A DNA stretch of 64,000 nt, taken from assembly GCA_019075865.1 (NCBI GenBank), contig JAGXAN010000004.1, positions 186,001 to 250,000 on the forward strand. Reading direction: 5' to 3'. This DNA comes from Hyphomicrobiales bacterium. Lineage in GTDB: Bacteria; Pseudomonadota; Alphaproteobacteria; Rhizobiales; Beijerinckiaceae. This document shows positions 36,300 through 45,428 of this stretch, one piece after another. Below the pieces are notes generated by a model. That model had not been told where the DNA came from. It saw only the letters and a program-made list of their open reading frames with translations, and made no database searches. The translations under genes and the position numbers were made by a program. Numbering within the stretch: the stretch's first letter is position 1; each line of letters starts with the position of its first letter.

Positions 36300-37292
36300 C
36301 TAACGGGCAGTATCGGAAACTGTATCGCTCAGCCCGATTTCGTCGAACGCGGCCACACTCACCATGGCTACGGTCTGGTCATGATAGCCAAATACCACCG
36401 CATGCAGGCCGGCAACGGCAAGGCTGTCCGCTCCGTTGGCGCTCCAGCCACGCTGGATGGTTGCGCCCCGCAGTGCACCGCCGTGGTCTGCATATAGCAC
36501 GAAAGCGGCTGGGCCGCTGTTTTCGGCGGTCAAGCGTGCGCCCACCATCTTCCAGTGGCTGTCGGCAAATCGCGGCAGTTTCAGCCGGTATCCAAGACGC
36601 TGGCTGAGGGATTTTTCCAGAACATCGGCATTTGGCGAGATAAACTCAAGAGGAAGCGCCGAAAAGCTGCGGTAATTGCGCAGGGCTGCCAGTGCGTTTT
36701 CATGGTCGGGGGCAAGTGCAACCGTTGAAGCAAGCCGGGCACGGCCCTCGCTTGGCGCCATTGCCTGCGCAACGGCCACCGGCGCAGCCAAAACAGGATT
36801 GGTTGTTGGCTGGCGCAATCCCTCTGCCGCCATGCCGGCGCTTTGCAGCAAGGCACCATGCTGCAATATCAGCGACATGGTCGCTGCCATGGCAAAGGCG
36901 CATGCCATGCCATAGACAAAAATGGACCAGGAGCGCCGCCTATCTGCCCCGTGTGACGAATGAGATAAATGCGGTGGCAATGGCATGGGTTCGGGGGGCA
37001 CGATCGACAGGCTGACCGGTGCATGTGGCACTGGCGAGGCCAGCCGCGTGGCAGTATATTTGATGGCACTATTGGCGCGCAATGACAGGCTTACCGGCAC
37101 AGTCTCGCGTGCAACCGCATCGAACTGCCCGCGCAGAAACTGGCGTTGGCTGCGCCAGGACTCAACCTTGCGCGCTGTCTCTGGATGGCCGTTGAGATAG
37201 TCGAGAATACCAGTGCGTTGCTCGGCCGGTAGTTCATCGTCGACGAAAGCGTTCAGCTCGGTATCGGAATAGGGGCATCGCATCGGGGTCAT
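36300..37292 (-). CDS. transmembrane anti-sigma factor
   Basis: The 330-residue protein opens with a short anti-sigma domain (TELNAFVDDELPAEQRTGIL, DYLNGHPETARKV) that lacks the zinc HxxxCxxC motif, then a Pro-rich linker, one membrane helix at about residues 121-144 (SIFVYGMACAFAMAATMSLI) and a large outside domain. It follows the ECF sigma gene by 9 bp, with AGGAGG before its ATG. The pair should form a membrane-controlled regulatory unit in which the sigma factor is held until an envelope signal frees it. The signal is unknown. Confidence 0.85.
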   Translation of the reverse strand: MTPMRCPYSDTELNAFVDDELPAEQRTGILDYLNGHPETARKVESWRSQRQFLRGQFDAVARETVPVSLSLRANSAIKYTATRLASPVPHAPVSLSIVPPEPMPLPPHLSHSSHGADRRRSWSIFVYGMACAFAMAATMSLILQHGALLQSAGMAAEGLRQPTTNPVLAAPVAVAQAMAPSEGRARLASTVALAPDHENALAALRNYRSFSALPLEFISPNADVLEKSLSQRLGYRLKLPRFADSHWKMVGARLTAENSGPAAFVLYADHGGALRGATIQRGWSANGADSLAVAGLHAVVFGYHDQTVAMVSVAAFDEIGLSDTVSDTAR

Positions 37293-37301
37293 CGGCGCCT
37301 C

Positions 37302-37868
37302 CTACTTGACCAGCCGCAAGTGCCGCACCCGCTTGGCTGGCTGCGATGCGCGCGCGCCGCTTTGGCTGTCCTGCGCGTGTATGCCATCCACAACGCGGGC
37401 AAAAGTCGCGCGCGCCCGCACCAGATTGGCTTGCAGGGTCTCGCGCGTCATATCCATGACCACGGCGGCATCGGCATAGTTGAAACCTTCGAGCACGACC
37501 AGCAACATGGCCGCCCGCTCCTCGAGATCAAGCGCGGCGAGCGCGACATCGACCAGGGTTTGCCCGCTCATTGTTCCGCTGATATCCCGCCCCATCGCGG
37601 CCGCATGGGCACCATGTCCCGCGCGCAGATTTTGCAACAGATGCGATTTGGCTCGTGATTGCTGGCGATGCAGTCCTACCAGACTGGCGTAAAGCGACAG
37701 TCGTACATCCATGCCCGAAGGCCGCGCGAATTTCAAAGCCCGCAAAATGGATTCATGCACCAGATCGTCACCCGAGCGACCGCCATCGGCCTTGCTGCCA
37801 ACCGTCAGCGCTCGCGCGAATCGGCGCAGTTTCGGCGTGTGGGTCTCAATTTCTTGCCGCAGGTCCAT
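37302..37868 (-). CDS. ECF-type RNA polymerase sigma factor
   Basis: The 188-residue protein contains sigma region 2 (DDLVHESILRALKFARPSG) and region 4 (ALDLEERAAMLLVVLEGFNYADAAVVMD with METRETLQ-like helix TRETLQANLVRARA). It lacks regions 1 and 3, so it is an ECF sigma factor. A GTG 9 bases upstream is an alternative start. Its gene is followed directly by that of a membrane anti-sigma factor. The promoter region it may autoregulate is the 469-bp gap shared with fabI. Confidence 0.85.
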   Translation of the reverse strand: MDLRQEIETHTPKLRRFARALTVGSKADGGRSGDDLVHESILRALKFARPSGMDVRLSLYASLVGLHRQQSRAKSHLLQNLRAGHGAHAAAMGRDISGTMSGQTLVDVALAALDLEERAAMLLVVLEGFNYADAAVVMDMTRETLQANLVRARATFARVVDGIHAQDSQSGARASQPAKRVRHLRLVK

Positions 37869-38337
37869 AAATCGCACAGCTTTCAGAATGCAAGGCGTTC
37901 AGCAAGAATCCTCTGGCCAAACAGCCGCTCCCGGAACCAACCAATCCATTAACGATTATTAACCTCTTTTATAAACTTTTTCCAGCCCTGACCGCGCGCC
38001 CGCTACAGCTTTTGCGTCAAAAATCACAAAGCTCAGGGAAGGGCTGCGGCAAAGCCGGCATCAGACAGGAAATAGTCGCAAAACGGCGACCAGGTTCCCA
38101 GCGCACACCTGGCGACCTTCACCCACCGACCTTGCAAATTGAGCACAATTTTTGCCGGAAAAATCGTCCAAAAATGCGCGCCGAGCGATGATTGCCATGA
38201 TTTTGTCAATCCAATTTCATCAAATTTACACGCGCGCGGCTTGCATCCAGCGCATGGAGGGCCTAGACGCGCTCAAGAAAATGGGTCAAAGATCACGCTC
38301 TTATGGCCCCCTTTGATACAAAGGCGCGAGTAATTTC
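37869..38337. other. divergent intergenic region, 469 bp, no gene seen
   Basis: The gap lies between the divergent sigma-factor and fabI genes. No tRNA, strong hairpin or credible small gene was found. A 6-bp inverted repeat (CCAGGT/ACCTGG near 38087 and 38106) is too weak to call. A possible fabI promoter is listed separately. The length leaves room for an unrecognised small RNA. Confidence 0.5.
38203..38231 (+). promoter_or_regulatory. possible fabI promoter
   Basis: TTGTCA (38203-38208), a 17-nt spacer and TTACAC (38226-38231) are positioned about 105 bases before the fabI ATG. The -10 match is only partial. Confidence 0.3.
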
Positions 38338-39192
38338 ATGGATCAAACGAATATACCTCCCTCTGGACAGGCCGAGACGGCCGCCCAATTCAGCCACCTG
38401 CTCGCTGGCAAGCGCGGGTTGATCATGGGCGTTGCCAATAATCGCTCCATTGCTTGGGGTATTGCCAAGGCGGCCCATGCCGCAGGGGCACAATTGGCTT
38501 TCACCTATCAAGGAGAAGCATTGGAGAAGCGGGTTCGCCCGCTCGCGGCGGAAGTCGATGGCAAGATTGTCGGCCATTGCGATGTCACCGATGGCGCAAC
38601 CATCGACGCCGTGTTTGCAGAAGTCGAGGCAATGTGGGGTGGCCTTGATTTCATCGTCCATTGCATCGCGTTTTCCGACAAAGACCAACTCACCGGCCGA
38701 TATATCGAGACGACGCAGGATAATTTTGCCAATTCGCTGCTCATCTCCTGCTACTCGTTTACCGCTGTTGCCCAGCGTGCCGAAAAGCTGATGCACAAAG
38801 GCGGGTCGATGCTGACCCTCACCTATTACGGTGCCGAAAAATGGATGCCCCATTATAATGTCATGGGCGTTGCCAAGGCGGCACTCGAAGCCAGCGTGCG
38901 TTACCTGGCCGCTGATCTGGGAGAAAAGAACATTCGCGTCAACGCGATCTCTGCTGGCCCGATCAAGACCCTTGCCGCGTCCGGTATTGGTGATTTCCGC
39001 TACATCCTGCGCTGGAATGAATATAATGCGCCGCTGCGTCGCACTGTAACCACCGAAGAAGTGGGCGAGACCGCAGTTTATCTTCTTTCTCCCATGTCGC
39101 GGGGCGTGACTGGCGAAATTTTGCATGTCGACGCCGGCTATCACGTCGTTGGCATGAAAAACCCCACAGCTCCAGACATAACCGTCGCCTGA
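38338..39192 (+). CDS. fabI: enoyl-[acyl-carrier-protein] reductase (NADH)
   Basis: FabI performs the last reduction of the type II fatty-acid elongation cycle. The 284-residue product has the FabI-style cofactor start GLIMGVANNRSIAWGIAKA, the LTYYGAEKWMPHYNVMGVAKAALE block with the Tyr-x6-Lys-type catalytic pair, and GPIKTLAASGI near the substrate lid. It is followed by the histidine phosphatase gene, 37 bp on, as in other rhizobia. Confidence 0.96.
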   Translation: MDQTNIPPSGQAETAAQFSHLLAGKRGLIMGVANNRSIAWGIAKAAHAAGAQLAFTYQGEALEKRVRPLAAEVDGKIVGHCDVTDGATIDAVFAEVEAMWGGLDFIVHCIAFSDKDQLTGRYIETTQDNFANSLLISCYSFTAVAQRAEKLMHKGGSMLTLTYYGAEKWMPHYNVMGVAKAALEASVRYLAADLGEKNIRVNAISAGPIKTLAASGIGDFRYILRWNEYNAPLRRTVTTEEVGETAVYLLSPMSRGVTGEILHVDAGYHVVGMKNPTAPDITVA

Positions 39193-39229: not shown

Positions 39230-39820
39230 ATGGATACAGAACTTGCCTATCGGCTGATTTTTCTGCGTCATGGCCAGACCGACTGGAATGTGGAAGAACG
39301 ACTGCAAGGCCAACGCGACATTCCGCTAAATGGCATCGGCCGCGATCAGGCTGCCAGTGCCGGACGCTCCTGCAAGCCCTGGCTGGAGAGCGATCTGAAT
39401 TTCCTTTGTTCGCCGCTGCAGCGCACGCGCGAAACCATGACCATTGCCCGGCAGGCCATGGGTTTGCAGCCCAGCCCTTTTGCGACGGATGATCGCCTGA
39501 AGGAAATATCCTTTGGCGACTGGGAAGGCATGACTTGGGGCGAAATCGAGAAGGCTGATCCAGCGCGTGCCAATGCCCGCGACGCCGACAAATGGGGCTA
39601 CGCACCGCCCGGCGGTGAAAGCTATGTGATGCTGGCAGAACGCATCAAGCCAGTATTGGCGGAATTGTCGGCAGATACGCTCATTGTCTCGCACGGAGGC
39701 GTCGCGCGCGCGCTGATGGCACTGATCGGCGGCGTTTCGCCCAAACGCGCACCGCTACTCAACGTCTATCAAGGCCGGCCGCTGGTTTTCGAGGGAGGGC
39801 GATGCAAATGGTATTCCTGA
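39230..39820 (+). CDS. histidine phosphatase family (phosphoglycerate mutase-like) protein
   Basis: The 196-residue protein has the catalytic RHG motif in IFLRHGQTDWNVEERLQGQRD, a second arginine in SPLQRTRETM and the C-terminal His in LIVSHGGVARAL. It hydrolyses or transfers phosphate from small substrates; the small size and missing lid point to a phosphatase rather than a true glycolytic mutase. In related genomes this gene normally leads directly to aroC, but here a 4.2-kb NRPS-like gene comes between. Confidence 0.9.
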   Translation: MDTELAYRLIFLRHGQTDWNVEERLQGQRDIPLNGIGRDQAASAGRSCKPWLESDLNFLCSPLQRTRETMTIARQAMGLQPSPFATDDRLKEISFGDWEGMTWGEIEKADPARANARDADKWGYAPPGGESYVMLAERIKPVLAELSADTLIVSHGGVARALMALIGGVSPKRAPLLNVYQGRPLVFEGGRCKWYS

Positions 39821-40055: not shown

Positions 40056-43000
40056 GTGTCGTCCATTCAAAATGCAAAATCTGCAGCAGACAGTGCTGAA
40101 TCCCTTGCCAGCGTATCGCACAAGGGGGCGCAAGTCGTGAATTTGCACAGTTCCGCGCCCATAGGCGGCGACTCCACCACAACGTCAAAAGCCCTGCTTG
40201 TCGGGCCGGTGATGCCCGAATTGATCCGCGATGAACTGCTGGCCGAAATCTTTGCCGCCACGGTGGAGAAATTCGCGACCAAAACAGCCATGATCGGGGA
40301 CGGCGTCCGCCTTTCCTATCAGGAGGTCGACGCCGAGGCTTTGCGGATCGCGCGCGGCCTGCTGCGCAATGGCATTGGCCCGGGCAAGGTAGTTGGCCTC
40401 TGGTTTGCGCGTGGCACCGAGCTTTTGATCGCCCAGATCGCTGTGGCCAAGACCGGCGCGGCCTGGCTGCCTTTTGATGCCGACGCCCCGTTGGACCGCA
40501 TCAAGGTCTGCCTCGACGACGCGGAAGCTGGCATGTTGCTGGCGAGCACCGCCCATGCCACCAAGGCGCATGATTTTGGCATGAACTGCGCCGTTCACGC
40601 CCCCGCTTCCCTAATTGATGACACCGATCAGCGCGCTGTCGATGCCCGCGCACTGGGCGCAACGCCCGCGCATCCGGCCTATATGATTTACACGTCGGGT
40701 TCGACTGGCACGCCAAAAGGCATCGTCATCAGCCAGAGCAATATCTGCCATTATTTGCGCTCCGCCAACGTCATTTACGGCCTCAACGCGCAGGACGTGG
40801 TGTTTCAGGGCGCTTCCGTTGCTTTCGATTTGTCGATGGAAGAAATCTGGGTGCCTTATCTGGTGGGGGCGACGCTGTTTGTAGCCACGCCCGCCATGAT
40901 GGGCGACGCCGACAAATTGCCCGAAATCATGGAGAAAGCCGGCGTTACCGTGCTGGATACCGTGCCAACTTTGCTCGGGTTGCTCAACCGTGACATTCCG
41001 GGCCTGCGGATTATCATTCTGGGCGGCGAGGCTTGCCCGCCAACCCTCGCCAATAACTGGTGCCGCGCCGGACGCAGCATTTTCAACTCCTATGGCCCCA
41101 CCGAGGCGACCGTTGTCGCCACCATTGCTGAAGTGCGCCCCGGTGAACCCGTGACCATCGGCGGCCCCATCCCCAATTACACCTGCTATGTTGCCGATGA
41201 CAGCCTCAACCTGCTCGATGTCGGCGTTGAGGGCGAATTGCTGATCGGCGGCCCCGGCGTCGCGCAAGGCTATTTGAAGCGGCCGGAACTGACGGCAGAG
41301 AAATTTGTCGCCAACCCATTCAACAAGTCGGGCTCAGACCAGATCCTTTATCGCTCCGGCGATGCGGTTGCCATTGACAGTGCCGGTAACATCGCCTTCC
41401 GCGGCCGCATAGACGATCAGGTCAAGATCCGGGGGTTCCGGGTCGAGCTTGGCGAAATCGAGAACAAGATTGCCGATTTTGATGTGGTTTCGCAAGCGGC
41501 AGTCGTGCTGCGCCACGACGAAGGCATGGATCAACTGGTGGCCTTCATCGTGCCCAAACGCACCGGGCCGGCCGGCCGCAACCTCGACGCCAAGGTCATG
41601 CGCGCCGATTTGAAAGGCCAGTTACCCGGTTACATGGTGCCAGCCCGATTTGAGATGGTGGATGAATTGCCGCGACTGTCCTCCGGCAAGGTCAACCGCA
41701 ACGCCCTCAAAAAGGCAGTGCTGCAAACCATCCTTGTGACCGAGGAGCAGGAAGAGCCGCATACCCCGACCGAAGCCATCCTCCTGAGTGCTGCCAAAAA
41801 GACCTTGCCGCCGCAGGCCATCGCCTTTGACGCTGACTTTTTCACCGATCTTGGCGGCCATTCGCTTATTGCTGCGCGCTTTGTTTCCATCGTTCGCGAG
41901 ACGCCGCAATTTGCAGGGATCACCCTTCAGGATGTCTATGTTTCGCGCAATCTGCGGGCCATGGCGGCGATGCTGGACAAGAAGTTCAGCCATTCTGGCC
42001 CACCCAAAGACCTGAGTTTTGTTCCGCCGCCTTTGAGCCGCCGCTTTTTCTGCGGCTTGGCGCAGATTTGCAGTCTGCCATTCCTGTTCGCCTTGATGAA
42101 TGCCCAATGGCTCAGCGTGTTCGTCAGCTTCATGCTGTTCACCGGCACTGATGCGAGCTTGCTGCAGGAGACTTTCTCGCTGCTTGGCATTTATATCTTT
42201 GTGCATTTTGCCACCGTCCTGGTGGCTGTAGCTGGCAAATGGGCGATTTTGGGGCGCACGCGCCCCGGTCGCTATCCGCTTTGGGGCACCTATTATTTCC
42301 GCTGGTGGTTCTCGCAAGCCCTGCTGGATCTGGCACATATCGGCTGGCTCCAGGGCACGCCCCTGATGCGCTATTTCCTCAATTCGCTGGGTGCCAACAT
42401 CGGTGCCGATTGCTTGATGGCGGAAATGGACGCGGGCGCCTTTGACCTGATCACCATTGGTGCCGGCACCTCGACCGGCGGCAAACTGATTCTCGCCAAT
42501 GCCCGCGTTGAAGGCAATGAATTGATCATCGGCAGCATAACCATCGGTGCCGATTGCCTGATCGGTTCGTCCTGCGTCATAGAAAATGATGTGGTCATCG
42601 GGGATCACGCCGAGATCCGCGACATTACCGCGATCCCGACCGGCGCGCGGATTGGTGCCAGCGAAATCTGGGATGGCTCGCCCGGTCGCAAGGTAGGCAT
42701 GGTTGACGTTGCCGCCCTCGATACCCCGCCGGTGGCTTCGCGCTTTGTCAAAGGCGTCCAACTCGCCGTCTATTTCATCATGACCTCTATCATCCCGCCT
42801 TTGGGATTGATGCCGATCCTCCCGGCTTTCTGGCTGTTCGATCATCTTGCCGACTGGATCAACCTGTCACCCGATGACCATACAACCTACCTGTTGACCC
42901 TGCCGATTCTGGCTTGGCCCACCGCTTTTGCCATGATGATTTTCACGGTCAGCTTCATCACGCTGTTGCGCTGGCTGATCCTGCCAGCGGTGCGCGAGGG

Positions 43001-44222
43001 AAAATATTCGATCTACTCTCATTTTTACCTGCGCAAGTGGATCGTCGCTTTCATGAGCGAGATCACGCTGGACGTGCTCACCTCGCTTTACGCCACGGTC
43101 TATATGCGGGCCTGGTATCGCCTGATGGGTTCGAAAATCGGAAAGGGTTCCGAAATTTCCACCAACTTTGCCGGCCGTTATGACCTGGTAGAAATTGGCG
43201 ACAAATGTTTCATCGCCGATGAAGTCGTGATGGGCGACGATGACGTCCGCCGTGGCTGGATGACGCTCAAACGTCTGCGCACGGGTTCGCAGGTGTTTAT
43301 TGGCAATAGCGGCCTTGTGCCCAGTGGTGCCGATATTCCCGATGGCGTGCTGATTGGCATCAAATCCAAGCCCCCGGCCAATGAATTGATGAGCCCTGGT
43401 GACACCTGGCTTGGTTCGCCGCCGATGAAATTGCCGGTTCGCCAGCGTTTCGATGGGGGTGGTGCCAATTGGACCTATGAACCAACTTTGGCCAAGCGCA
43501 TCCTGCGTGCGCTCTTTGAGGCGACCCGCGCCTCCATGCCAACCATGTTGTCCATTACCTTCGGTTCATGGCTCGTTGATTTGATCAGCCAGCCCTTGAT
43601 CGACGGCGATTACATGAGCGTGTTTGGCCTGTATCTGCTGGCCTCCTTTGGCATGTCGACCATGCTGACCATTGTCGTCATTATCATTAAATGGACGACG
43701 ATGGGCCGCTACGAGCCTTGCGCCAAGCCGATGTGGTCGTGGTGGGCGATGAGCACTGAAGCGGTAGCGGTTCTGCACTTCGATCTGGCGGGCAAATCGC
43801 TGCTCGGCCATTTGCAGGGCACACCGTTCCTGCCGTGGGTATTGCGGCTTTATGGCGTGAAAACCGGCAAGGGCATCTATATGGATTCGGCCGATATTAC
43901 CGAATTTGACTGCGTGTCCATTGGCGATTTTGTCTCGCTAAATACTGGCTCGGCCCTGCAAACCCACCTTTATGAAGACCGTGTCATGAAGGTTGGCCGC
44001 GTTTCGGTCGCCAGGGGTGTCACGGTTGGGTCGGGGGCGACAGTGCTTTATGACACGGTGGTCTCCGAATATGCCCGTCTTGGCCCTCTGACTTTGGTGA
44101 TGAAGGGCGAGTCCATTCCCGCCAACAGCGAGTGGATTGGCATTCCAGCCGAACCGCGCGAAATGTCGGACGTGGAAACCATTGCCCTCAATGCGCAGGA
44201 TTTGCGTGTTGCCGCTTCCTGA
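40056..44222 (+). CDS. Pls/PosA-type non-ribosomal peptide synthetase-like protein (A-T-[TM-LbH]x3)
   Basis: The 1388-residue protein begins with an adenylation domain (about 60-552): YTSGSTGTPKG at 212-222, NSYGPTE at 344-350, RGRIDDQVKIRG at 449-460 and the A10 lysine K545. A carrier domain follows with LGGHS and the phosphopantetheine Ser603. The remaining half has no condensation or thioesterase domain. It holds three units, each with membrane helices (about 664-733, 898-980, 1156-1213) and a hexapeptide-repeat left-handed helix (about 779-880, 1024-1125, 1262-1365). This is the plan of epsilon-poly-lysine synthetase Pls and PosA-like enzymes, which activate an amino acid and polymerise it at the membrane. 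The product here is unknown. Start is GTG with a weak GGAACAGG site; later starts are possible. Confidence 0.88.
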   Translation: MSSIQNAKSAADSAESLASVSHKGAQVVNLHSSAPIGGDSTTTSKALLVGPVMPELIRDELLAEIFAATVEKFATKTAMIGDGVRLSYQEVDAEALRIARGLLRNGIGPGKVVGLWFARGTELLIAQIAVAKTGAAWLPFDADAPLDRIKVCLDDAEAGMLLASTAHATKAHDFGMNCAVHAPASLIDDTDQRAVDARALGATPAHPAYMIYTSGSTGTPKGIVISQSNICHYLRSANVIYGLNAQDVVFQGASVAFDLSMEEIWVPYLVGATLFVATPAMMGDADKLPEIMEKAGVTVLDTVPTLLGLLNRDIPGLRIIILGGEACPPTLANNWCRAGRSIFNSYGPTEATVVATIAEVRPGEPVTIGGPIPNYTCYVADDSLNLLDVGVEGELLIGGPGVAQGYLKRPELTAEKFVANPFNKSGSDQILYRSGDAVAIDSAGNIAFRGRIDDQVKIRGFRVELGEIENKIADFDVVSQAAVVLRHDEGMDQLVAFIVPKRTGPAGRNLDAKVMRADLKGQLPGYMVPARFEMVDELPRLSSGKVNRNALKKAVLQTILVTEEQEEPHTPTEAILLSAAKKTLPPQAIAFDADFFTDLGGHSLIAARFVSIVRETPQFAGITLQDVYVSRNLRAMAAMLDKKFSHSGPPKDLSFVPPPLSRRFFCGLAQICSLPFLFALMNAQWLSVFVSFMLFTGTDASLLQETFSLLGIYIFVHFATVLVAVAGKWAILGRTRPGRYPLWGTYYFRWWFSQALLDLAHIGWLQGTPLMRYFLNSLGANIGADCLMAEMDAGAFDLITIGAGTSTGGKLILANARVEGNELIIGSITIGADCLIGSSCVIENDVVIGDHAEIRDITAIPTGARIGASEIWDGSPGRKVGMVDVAALDTPPVASRFVKGVQLAVYFIMTSIIPPLGLMPILPAFWLFDHLADWINLSPDDHTTYLLTLPILAWPTAFAMMIFTVSFITLLRWLILPAVREGKYSIYSHFYLRKWIVAFMSEITLDVLTSLYATVYMRAWYRLMGSKIGKGSEISTNFAGRYDLVEIGDKCFIADEVVMGDDDVRRGWMTLKRLRTGSQVFIGNSGLVPSGADIPDGVLIGIKSKPPANELMSPGDTWLGSPPMKLPVRQRFDGGGANWTYEPTLAKRILRALFEATRASMPTMLSITFGSWLVDLISQPLIDGDYMSVFGLYLLASFGMSTMLTIVVIIIKWTTMGRYEPCAKPMWSWWAMSTEAVAVLHFDLAGKSLLGHLQGTPFLPWVLRLYGVKTGKGIYMDSADITEFDCVSIGDFVSLNTGSALQTHLYEDRVMKVGRVSVARGVTVGSGATVLYDTVVSEYARLGPLTLVMKGESIPANSEWIGIPAEPREMSDVETIALNAQDLRVAAS

Positions 44223-44339
44223 TTGCGCTTGCGGTCAGGCAAAGGCAGGGCGCAGGTTGCGCGCATACCACGGATCGATTTGCCATAGATGCGGTTTGCT
44301 CTAAAAGGGGCAATATCAAGTTGGGAGCCATTTACCGCA

Positions 44340-45428
44340 ATGTCGCATAATACCTTCGGTCATCTTTTTCGTGTCACAACTTTCGGTGAATCGCATGGGC
44401 TGGCCCTGGGCTGCGTGGTGGATGGCTGCCCGCCGCGCCTGCCGCTGAATGAGGCCGACATTCAGGCGTTTTTAGACCAACGCCGTCCGGGCCAGTCGCG
44501 CTTCACAACCCAGCGTCAGGAGCCCGATCAAGTCAAGATTCTATCGGGCGTGTTTACCGATCCCGAAACCTCGGCGCAGGTAACCACCGGAACCCCGATT
44601 GCCCTGCTCATTGAGAATGTCGATCAGCGCTCCAAGGATTACAGCGAGATCGCGCAGAAATTCCGGCCCGGTCACGCCGATTACACCTATGAGGCCAAAT
44701 ATGGCATCCGCGACTATCGCGGCGGCGGGCGCTCCTCGGCACGCGAGACCGCAGCCCGCGTTGCCGCCGGGGCCATTGCCCGCCGCGTCATCCCGCAGGT
44801 GACAATTCGCGGCGCACTCGTGCAGATGGGCCCGCACAAGATCAACCGTGCCAATTGGGATTGGGCGGCAGTCAACCAGAACCCGTTCTTTTGCCCCGAC
44901 GCCGAGGCAGCTGCCTTTTTTGAAACCTATCTCGATGGCATTCGCAAATCAGGTTCCTCGATCGGCGCGGTGATTGAAGTGGTGGCCGAAGGGGTTCCTG
45001 CCGGCTGGGGTGCCCCGGTTTACGCCAAACTCGACAGCGAAATCGCCAGCGCCCTGATGAGCATCAATGCGGTGAAGGGCGTTGAAATCGGGGATGGATT
45101 TGCCGCAGCCGAACTGACCGGCGAGGCCAATGCCGACGAAATGCGGGCTGGCAATGATGGCGCGCCCCGCTTTCTGTCCAACCATGCCGGTGGCGTTCTG
45201 GGCGGCATCGCCACTGGCCAGCCGATTGTGGCGCGTTTTGCGGTAAAGCCGACTTCCTCCATTTTGGCACCGCGGCTGACGGTGGACAAATCCGGAGCCG
45301 AAACCGACATCCGCACCAAGGGCCGTCATGACCCCTGCGTCGGTATTCGTGCGGTGCCGGTGGGCGAAGCCATGCTCGCCTGCGTGCTGGCGGACGCATT
45401 TTTGCGCCATCGCGGACAAGTGGGCTAG
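44340..45428 (+). CDS. aroC: chorismate synthase
   Basis: AroC makes chorismate from 5-enolpyruvylshikimate-3-phosphate with reduced FMN. The 362-residue product starts [20 protein letters not shown], and contains [44 protein letters not shown] and the late [19 protein letters not shown] (here KGRHDPC). All conserved blocks are intact. It lies 117 bp after the NRPS-like gene on the same strand. Confidence 0.97.

Follow-up and report, generated by a model that had tools for sequence, protein, structure and literature searches.

The closest described systems to the gene considered here are PosA, the delta-poly-L-ornithine synthetase of Acinetobacter baumannii, and Pls, the epsilon-poly-L-lysine synthetase of Streptomyces albulus. 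In the available excerpts of the PosA paper, residue 2 of the specificity code is proposed as a gauge of substrate length, with Phe for diaminopropionate and diaminobutyrate (DAP/DAB), Met for ornithine and Ala for lysine (PMC10522769). Exchanging the Asp or the Glu of code positions 1 and 3 abolishes PosA activity, replacing the position-2 Met by Ala raises the efficiency with lysine nearly 10-fold, and Ser313 is worth 183-fold in efficiency (PMC10522769). The same excerpts list "D L E D I G T V T/V/I K" among the unique signatures, for Archaea, Rhizobia and Methylobacterium; they name no product for it, and likewise give no locus or co-occurrence data for such members. A gene with a pocket of this type lies in a 64,000-nucleotide stretch of a Hyphomicrobiales bacterium (contig JAGXAN010000004.1, positions 186,001 to 250,000; hereafter the window), and encodes a synthetase of the Pls/PosA plan.

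With a probability of about 0.6, the enzyme is a membrane-embedded, iterative one-module synthetase of a cationic homopoly(amino acid), favouring ornithine, activated by an unlinked Sfp-type transferase, using His1304 as base and vertically kept. The adenylation (A) domain would activate one basic amino acid of primary metabolism, most likely L-ornithine, then L-lysine, then L-arginine. The Sfp-type transferase would convert the carrier to its holo form, and the amino acid would be loaded on Ser603. The tail, a covalent pseudo-trimer of hexapeptide-acyltransferase-like repeats, may then join the aminoacyl group to the side-chain amine on the chain being built; His1304, in the third repeat, would serve as general base, and the product would be a short isopeptide-linked polycation. 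Such a function would be old and mostly vertical in the bacterial family, rather than part of an acquired antibiotic cluster.

The gene is real and not a chance frame: long open matches extend across hundreds of genomes. Its open reading frame (ORF) has a GTG start and is complete and stop-free throughout; with the first ∼45 residues lacking conservation, translation may begin at 40056, 40137 or 40143. Decay was considered and rejected, as the family matches listed have long open frames. Pfam recognises AMP-binding (residues 66-407), AMP-binding_C (467-545) and PP-binding (584-640) domains, with the codon of the carrier serine at 41862-41864, and a hexapeptide match slightly below its gathering score (26.3 vs 27). 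No condensation or thioesterase domain of the synthetase matches Pfam at E ≤ 0.001, in agreement with the sequence-only reading, an earlier model-made annotation that described one adenylation and one carrier domain and neither of these. The match to TIGR01733 reaches 394.3 bits (cut-off 317.4). Residues 669-1365 score 573.8 bits against NCBIfam TIGR02353 (NRPS_term_dom, "Pls/PosA"; cut-off 423.1), so that the C-terminal half belongs with Pls/PosA, as had been claimed, and not with an unrelated transporter or acyltransferase family. Together with the single A and carrier domains, the three tail repeats with their helix pairs and the acidic pair of the code, Asp at position 1 (D258) and Glu at position 3 (E262), this score makes the protein a solid new member of a family already described; across its lineage the gene is common and, for the most part, stays at one locus.

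Within its 3.29-Mb genome the synthetase gene is single-copy, and ten further matches, at 25-31% identity, fall within the adenylation region. Four carrier-domain matches occur in that genome; the one in the synthetase alone has a long open frame (1401 aa), against 90-130 aa for the rest, and no condensation-domain match was found there. A promoter and terminator scan gave nothing beyond the level of shuffled sequence.

The substrate pocket was read by alignment to the sequence of the PosA crystal structure (8G95), with K545 placed by the A10 motif; 8G95 is also the best solved-structure sequence match of the A core (403 bits). The resulting Stachelhaus code is D258 L259 E262 D301 I321 G323 S345 V353 V354 K545, or DLEDIGSVVK. 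The pattern DLED[IL]G[ST]VVK holds in 98 of 98 rows, comprising the window, 17 regions from its own family (L032-L048) and 80 named loci (L049-L128): 62 rows, the window included, have DLEDIGSVVK, 34 have DLEDLGTVVK and two have DLEDIGTVVK. The remaining two of the 100 aligned rows (L029 and L031) belong to other code classes at ∼30% identity. Named relatives among the best 80 of 373 include Methylobacterium, Methylorubrum, Bosea, Rhodoblastus, Methylocella and Chelatococcus. Laboratory strains exist in the Methylobacterium and Methylorubrum group; L116, a Methylorubrum extorquens record, is metagenome-assembled. The DLED pocket and common descent place the gene in the DLEDIGT-V-(T/V/I)-K class; at position 7, 62 of the 98 rows have Ser and not Thr. 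As a separate observation, some family members have codes outside the main classes: L137 (DVEANGTGSK), L140 (DFEHSGTCSK) and the very divergent L169 (DGSFVATTDK).

Ornithine is the favoured monomer. The Asp and Glu essential to PosA are both retained, and Leu259, at the length-gauging position, is nearest in size to Met. The enzyme is neither a PosA orthologue, its pocket being DLEDIGSVVK and not DMEHNGTVSK, nor a Pls orthologue, with Leu259 and not Ala at position 2. That it is the same kind of enzyme working on L-lysine, making epsilon-poly-L-lysine as Streptomyces Pls does, is the foremost alternative and somewhat unlikely. Several observations count against ornithine, some of them in favour of lysine. 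Seven of ten code letters are shared with a lysine-type row (DAESIGTVVK; L134, Nocardia) and five with PosA (DMEHNGTVSK); the counterpart of PosA Ser313 is Val; and the code letters do not tell ornithine and lysine apart. In the available part of a second source, the published ornithine code DMEDVGSVDK, which also accepts lysine, and the published lysine code DGEDHGTVVK, which carries E239/D278, each share seven of ten letters with the window code (PMC12283262). The published arginine consensus D[AV]ED[IVL]GA[VI][TD]K likewise has E239 and D278 (PMC12283262). Lysine is disfavoured by Leu at position 2, where lysine-type members have Ala.

A different basic amino acid, L-arginine or another larger or unusual one, would yield a polymer of a new chemical kind. 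Against this, the pocket is narrowed by the Leu at position 2, its Ser/Thr at position 7 is in line with the diamino-acid members, and we know of no precedent in the family for isopeptide polymerisation through a guanidine group. In its favour, the arginine consensus shares I/L299 and G301 with the window pocket besides E239 and D278 (PMC12283262), and a Bdellovibrionales family member is reported to show activity on L-Arg but on none of the four diamino acids tried (PMC10522769). Of the explanations weighed here, this is the least probable.

Trees bear on the same question. A full-length tree of 65 rows was made by a quick IQ-TREE run, and a second, of 46 rows, was made from the polymerisation domain alone and is hence free of the pocket. 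In the full-length tree, 34 DLED rows stand on one side of a branch with a Shimodaira-Hasegawa-like approximate likelihood ratio test (SH-aLRT) support of 100; they join a DMEH row (99), and then other DMEH rows and L137 (99). The corresponding supports in the polymerisation-domain tree are 100, 95 and 99. In both trees the DLED clade adjoins the ornithine-code (PosA-type) DMEH rows and not the DAES rows, which speaks against lysine; a point on the other side is that the trees hold rows with like codes, not the full-length proteins of A. baumannii or S. albulus. Should the root be outside, an ornithine-type pocket looks ancestral to the DLED pocket. Five Azospirillum/Roseomonas and related rows nest within the DLED clade of the full-length tree, which suggests transfer out of the window's order.

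Neighbouring genes agree with the code classes across a sample of 40 further alphaproteobacterial regions and six plasmid regions. In the DFE/DYE class, a diaminobutyrate-transaminase-like gene (ectB, at least 49% identity) lies in the flanks of 7 of 18 loci, one such neighbour, in Skermanella, being annotated ectB. In the DGES class, a lysine-2,3-aminomutase-like gene lies in the flanks of all three loci; those of L159 and L160 are 66% identical to that of L152, which has Pfam LAM_C. At 109 DLED loci, ectB, lysine aminomutase and SbnA/SbnB were absent from the fetched flanks at 40% identity or more, the query proteins coming from L133, L150 and L152 and the flanks being of unequal length. The lack of a monomer gene suggests a substrate from primary metabolism, whether ornithine, lysine or arginine; lysine too would need no dedicated gene. 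Distant (24-33%) aminotransferase or pyridoxal-phosphate-enzyme matches at four DLED loci (L033, L048, L078, L155) weigh on the other side. A tailoring operon was rejected, since the neighbours that were scanned have housekeeping or regulatory roles. The sequence-only reading had reported no tailoring, export or immunity gene; this stands for the eight surrounding proteins scanned, from ORFs at 34-50 kb, but elsewhere in the genome lies an Sfp-type transferase (L135) that might activate the synthetase. Separately, the DFEALG-type loci L143, L175 and L176 carry a distant (30-32%) lysine-aminomutase-like gene, which we assume may be an aminomutase of the elongation factor P type.

The membrane tail consists of three repeats, each with a long helix pair and a beta-helix part. 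The repeats match one another in hhalign (probabilities 99.5, 99.6 and 97.5), and AlphaFold2 models of residues 576-1388 (predicted local distance difference test 85.3; predicted template-modelling score 0.87) and 656-1388 (85.7; 0.87) both show helix pairs and strand-rich parts in a threefold repeat, bearing out the earlier description of a long membrane tail with hexapeptide repeats. The tail was folded alone (656-1388) after carrier-domain matches had filled the first structural search. The model of the first repeat resembles galactoside O-acetyltransferase (a modest Z of 8.4; 141 residues aligned; root-mean-square deviation 2.8 Å). Foldseek matches in the Protein Data Bank are mostly hexapeptide acyltransferases and include 4ihf and 4ihh, entries that concern acyl carrier protein in lipid A production and that we take to be LpxD; a viral structure library gave no match at E ≤ 0.001. 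The predicted fold, which the earlier reading had proposed as a check, is hexapeptide-acetyltransferase-like, the shape that the PosA authors describe for their model of the same domain in the excerpts available (PMC10522769).

These likenesses, with an acyltransferase-like first repeat and lipid A entries among the matches, lend something to a reading without any polymer, in which the tail would hand single amino acids to an envelope lipid, sugar or protein, as a one-module counterpart of D-alanine or lipid A acyl transfer; the wide occurrence of the gene in the family is also what an envelope function might show. That reading is improbable, if less so than an arginine polymer: the TIGR02353 family and the closest solved A domain are those of polymer makers, in both trees no code class lies nearer than that of PosA, and the third-repeat residues are identical across code classes, Pls- and PosA-like rows included.

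Conservation points to where polymerisation may occur. In five code classes (110, 3, 6, 3 and 18 rows), 21 polar or aromatic tail positions are kept in at least 80% of each class, with seven in the first repeat, three in the second and eleven in the third (E1235, T1256, E1283, D1291, Q1302, H1304, E1307, K1312, Y1332, K1350 and E1352). His1304 is the sole tail histidine kept in all five classes, and repeat alignments place Ala at the equivalent position of the first repeat and Asp in the second. Hexapeptide acetyltransferases of the LacA type use a catalytic His as base. By this analogy, the third repeat plausibly houses the one polymerisation site, where His1304 would act as base; the kept residues of repeats one and two make the third favoured and not alone.

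The gene is common in the window's family. A TIGR02353 gene occurs in 273 of 397 family genomes (264 above the cut-off; 239 of 332 good genomes), in 51 of 297 genomes drawn from the order (12 of them from the window's family) and in 10 of 385 drawn from the class (4 from the family), at E limits of 1e-40, 1e-40 and 1e-50, respectively; these counts pool code classes, the copy of G007, for instance, belonging to another class. The host, described before as rhizobial, is so at the level of the order and not in the narrow sense, being Beijerinckiaceae-like.

The usual gene order, fabI, a PGAM-like phosphatase gene, the nonribosomal peptide synthetase (NRPS) gene and aroC, usually marks one ancestral place in the family. 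At least one of the three markers is present in 16 of 17 own-family regions (L032-L048), and an upstream marker together with aroC in 12 of them; among named loci outside Azospirillum and Roseomonas the corresponding figures are 55 and 24 of 60, these counts being limited by many stretches that are short or ended by contig ends. The markers are present at none of 20 Azospirillum/Roseomonas loci. A horizontally acquired antibiotic cluster was rejected, given the markers at 16/17 own-family and 55/60 named loci and a GC content that is not odd. Two kinds of observation fit a single kept place less well. The locus neighbours are absent at L040 and at five named loci (L058, L065, L069, L073, L114), and four synthetase-free genomes (L179, L181, L183, L190) have 750-1326 bp before aroC, a gap in which no convincing synthetase match was found. 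These four come from a sample of 18 family genomes, drawn from the first 20 on the list of those without the synthetase and each with a completeness of 90% or more (G004 and G008 were dropped). All 18 have aroC, 11 have PGAM or fabI upstream of it (1.5 kb fetched), and seven (L177, L178, L180, L182, L185, L192, L193) have a gap of just 33-113 bp and are read as clean losses of the synthetase gene. A supposed remnant beside aroC in G032 (L191; 25% over 310 residues) was rejected as an acyl-CoA-ligase-like frame.

Two side observations concern the same surroundings. Window positions 36300-37877 (−) hold a Sigma-70-family gene of the extracytoplasmic function (ECF)-like kind followed by an ORF without a Pfam match, anti-sigma-like by position; the ECF-like gene and its follower are kept near fabI in many relatives. 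The marker-free Azospirillum/Roseomonas copies are L077, L079-L087, L090, L093-L098, L100, L107, L108 and L129, and many of their contigs break off ∼0.4-1.3 kb ahead of the gene, perhaps at a repeat.

Presence of the synthetase goes with that of a second phosphopantetheinyl transferase. Besides its unlinked Sfp-type gene, the window genome carries one that is AcpS-like (L136). All 18 chosen TIGR02353 genomes have at least two PF01648 genes, vs 7 of 18 without a TIGR02353 gene (Fisher p 1.1e-4), as do 20 of 20 further TIGR02353 genomes, the window's own included, for a total of 38/38. Condensation-domain matches occur in five of the seven exceptions (G016, G022, G441, G453, G466), those of G016 and G441 being partial; the other two, G442 and G462, do not fit, having a second transferase but lacking both the synthetase gene and a condensation-domain match. 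Among genomes without a condensation-domain match, a second transferase is found in 12 of 12 with the synthetase (own included) vs 2 of 12 without (p 6.7e-5). Six of seven mixed-state genera with transferase counts (g16, g17, g18, g21, g27, g29, g32; g5 was dropped for a copy of another class) fall to one transferase where the synthetase is missing, g16 being a tie. The Fisher tests ignore relatedness and use genomes from the head of the list, and the PF01648 counts mix AcpS and Sfp types as well as code classes, with divergent transferases able to escape them. Most simply, the second transferase would chiefly serve this synthetase.

Physical linkage varies. The 40 regions include ten DLED loci whose code can be read, and seven of these have an adjoining phosphopantetheinyl-transferase-like gene (L139, L153, L155, L158, L161, L163, L164), those of L163 and L164 scoring below the Pfam gathering score and grouping with L153 and L158 by BLAST. 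Such a gene also adjoins a Rhizobium plasmid copy, 48% identical, and transferase and synthetase have neighbouring coordinates in G021, G476, G526, G546 and G586. A BLAST search of the flanks of L029-L128 found a transferase gene in just 3 of 100 (L030, L031, L040); close linkage is therefore not the family rule.

The family retention (273/397), the usual ancestral locus, the association with a second transferase and the class-specific monomer neighbours are new additions. Retention of about two-thirds, mostly at one locus, with apparent clean losses and linked transferase loss, offers a natural system for finding the physiological role. It can be put forward tentatively that DLED is a further functional class, a fixed Beijerinckiaceae function with its own Sfp-type enzyme, whose polycation would be physiological (envelope, storage or surface) and not antibiotic. 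The sequence-only reading called the product undescribed. This agrees with the literature searched, no report of a DLED-class product having been found in the open-access literature, among the matches listed, with most subscription journals outside its range; the pocket code itself had already been flagged in the accessible part of PMC10522769.

Table 1. Features of the synthetase gene and its conserved neighbours in the window.
Feature	Coordinates	Strand	Remarks and basis
fabI-type enoyl-acyl carrier protein (ACP) reductase	38338..39192	+	conserved upstream marker of the locus, outside the enzyme
Histidine phosphatase (PGAM-like)	39230..39820	+	conserved upstream neighbour
Pls/PosA-type single-module synthetase, A - PCP - membrane polymerisation domain	40056..44222	+	1388 aa; ORF and profile scans
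Adenylation domain, residues 66-545	40251..41690	+	Pfam, alignment to PosA, code extraction
Carrier (PCP) domain, residues 584-640, phosphopantetheine Ser603 in DLGGHSL	41805..41975	+	Pfam
NRPS_term_dom / polymerisation domain, residues 669-1365	42060..44150	+	TIGR02353, hhalign, AlphaFold2 models
Putative polymerisation site, E1283 Q1302 H1304 E1307 K1312 K1350 E1352	43902..44111	+	conservation; catalytic role conjectural
aroC chorismate synthase	44289..45428	+	conserved downstream neighbour, 66 bp past the synthetase

Other arrangements of the terminal domain were seen elsewhere. Two genomes of the same order but a different family, G046 and G928, have a terminal domain of the Pls/PosA type (666 and 655 bits) fused to tandem carriers: four carrier domains at L172:3102-6452 (−) and three at L171:6319-9456 (−), with no adenylation match in either protein. 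The next gene encodes a partial condensation-A-PCP protein in L172 and a partial condensation-A-PCP-thioesterase protein in L171, and both loci have OCD and PALP genes (SbnB/SbnA-like) upstream, presumably 2,3-diaminopropionate genes, with a transferase gene nearby. This arrangement resembles the system divided over separate proteins that would act in trans. The terminal domain of G110 lies in a 3474-aa open frame by genome search vs a 943-aa frame at L138:8089-10920 (−), where the match spans only window residues 414-1371 and the start of the A domain was not found.

Compared with the known systems, the window synthetase shares with PosA the A-PCP-membrane tail plan and the stand-alone gene (PMC10522769, from excerpts), together with the Asp/Glu pocket pair; the PosA A domain is the closest one with a solved structure, and both trees put the PosA code class nearest. 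It differs in the pocket, DMEHNGTVSK being alike at 5/10 positions, in coming from a different bacterial class and in having a conserved chromosomal locus. With Pls it shares the domain plan, the NCBIfam family and, according to the same excerpts, the helix pairs between three repeats (PMC10522769). It departs from Pls at the length-gauging position, which is Ala there (PMC10522769) and Leu here, and the Pls A domain is matched less strongly (7wew, 239 bits with the full-length query). The hexapeptide acetyltransferases (galactoside and maltose O-acetyltransferase, CysE) have in common with the tail model the beta-helix repeat fold and a conserved His. Unlike them, the tail has its three repeats in one chain, with membrane helices and, probably, an aminoacyl-carrier donor. 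The DLEDIGT-type members of Rhizobia, Methylobacterium and Archaea listed in the excerpts of PMC10522769 have the same code class, and it is among them that the window gene belongs.

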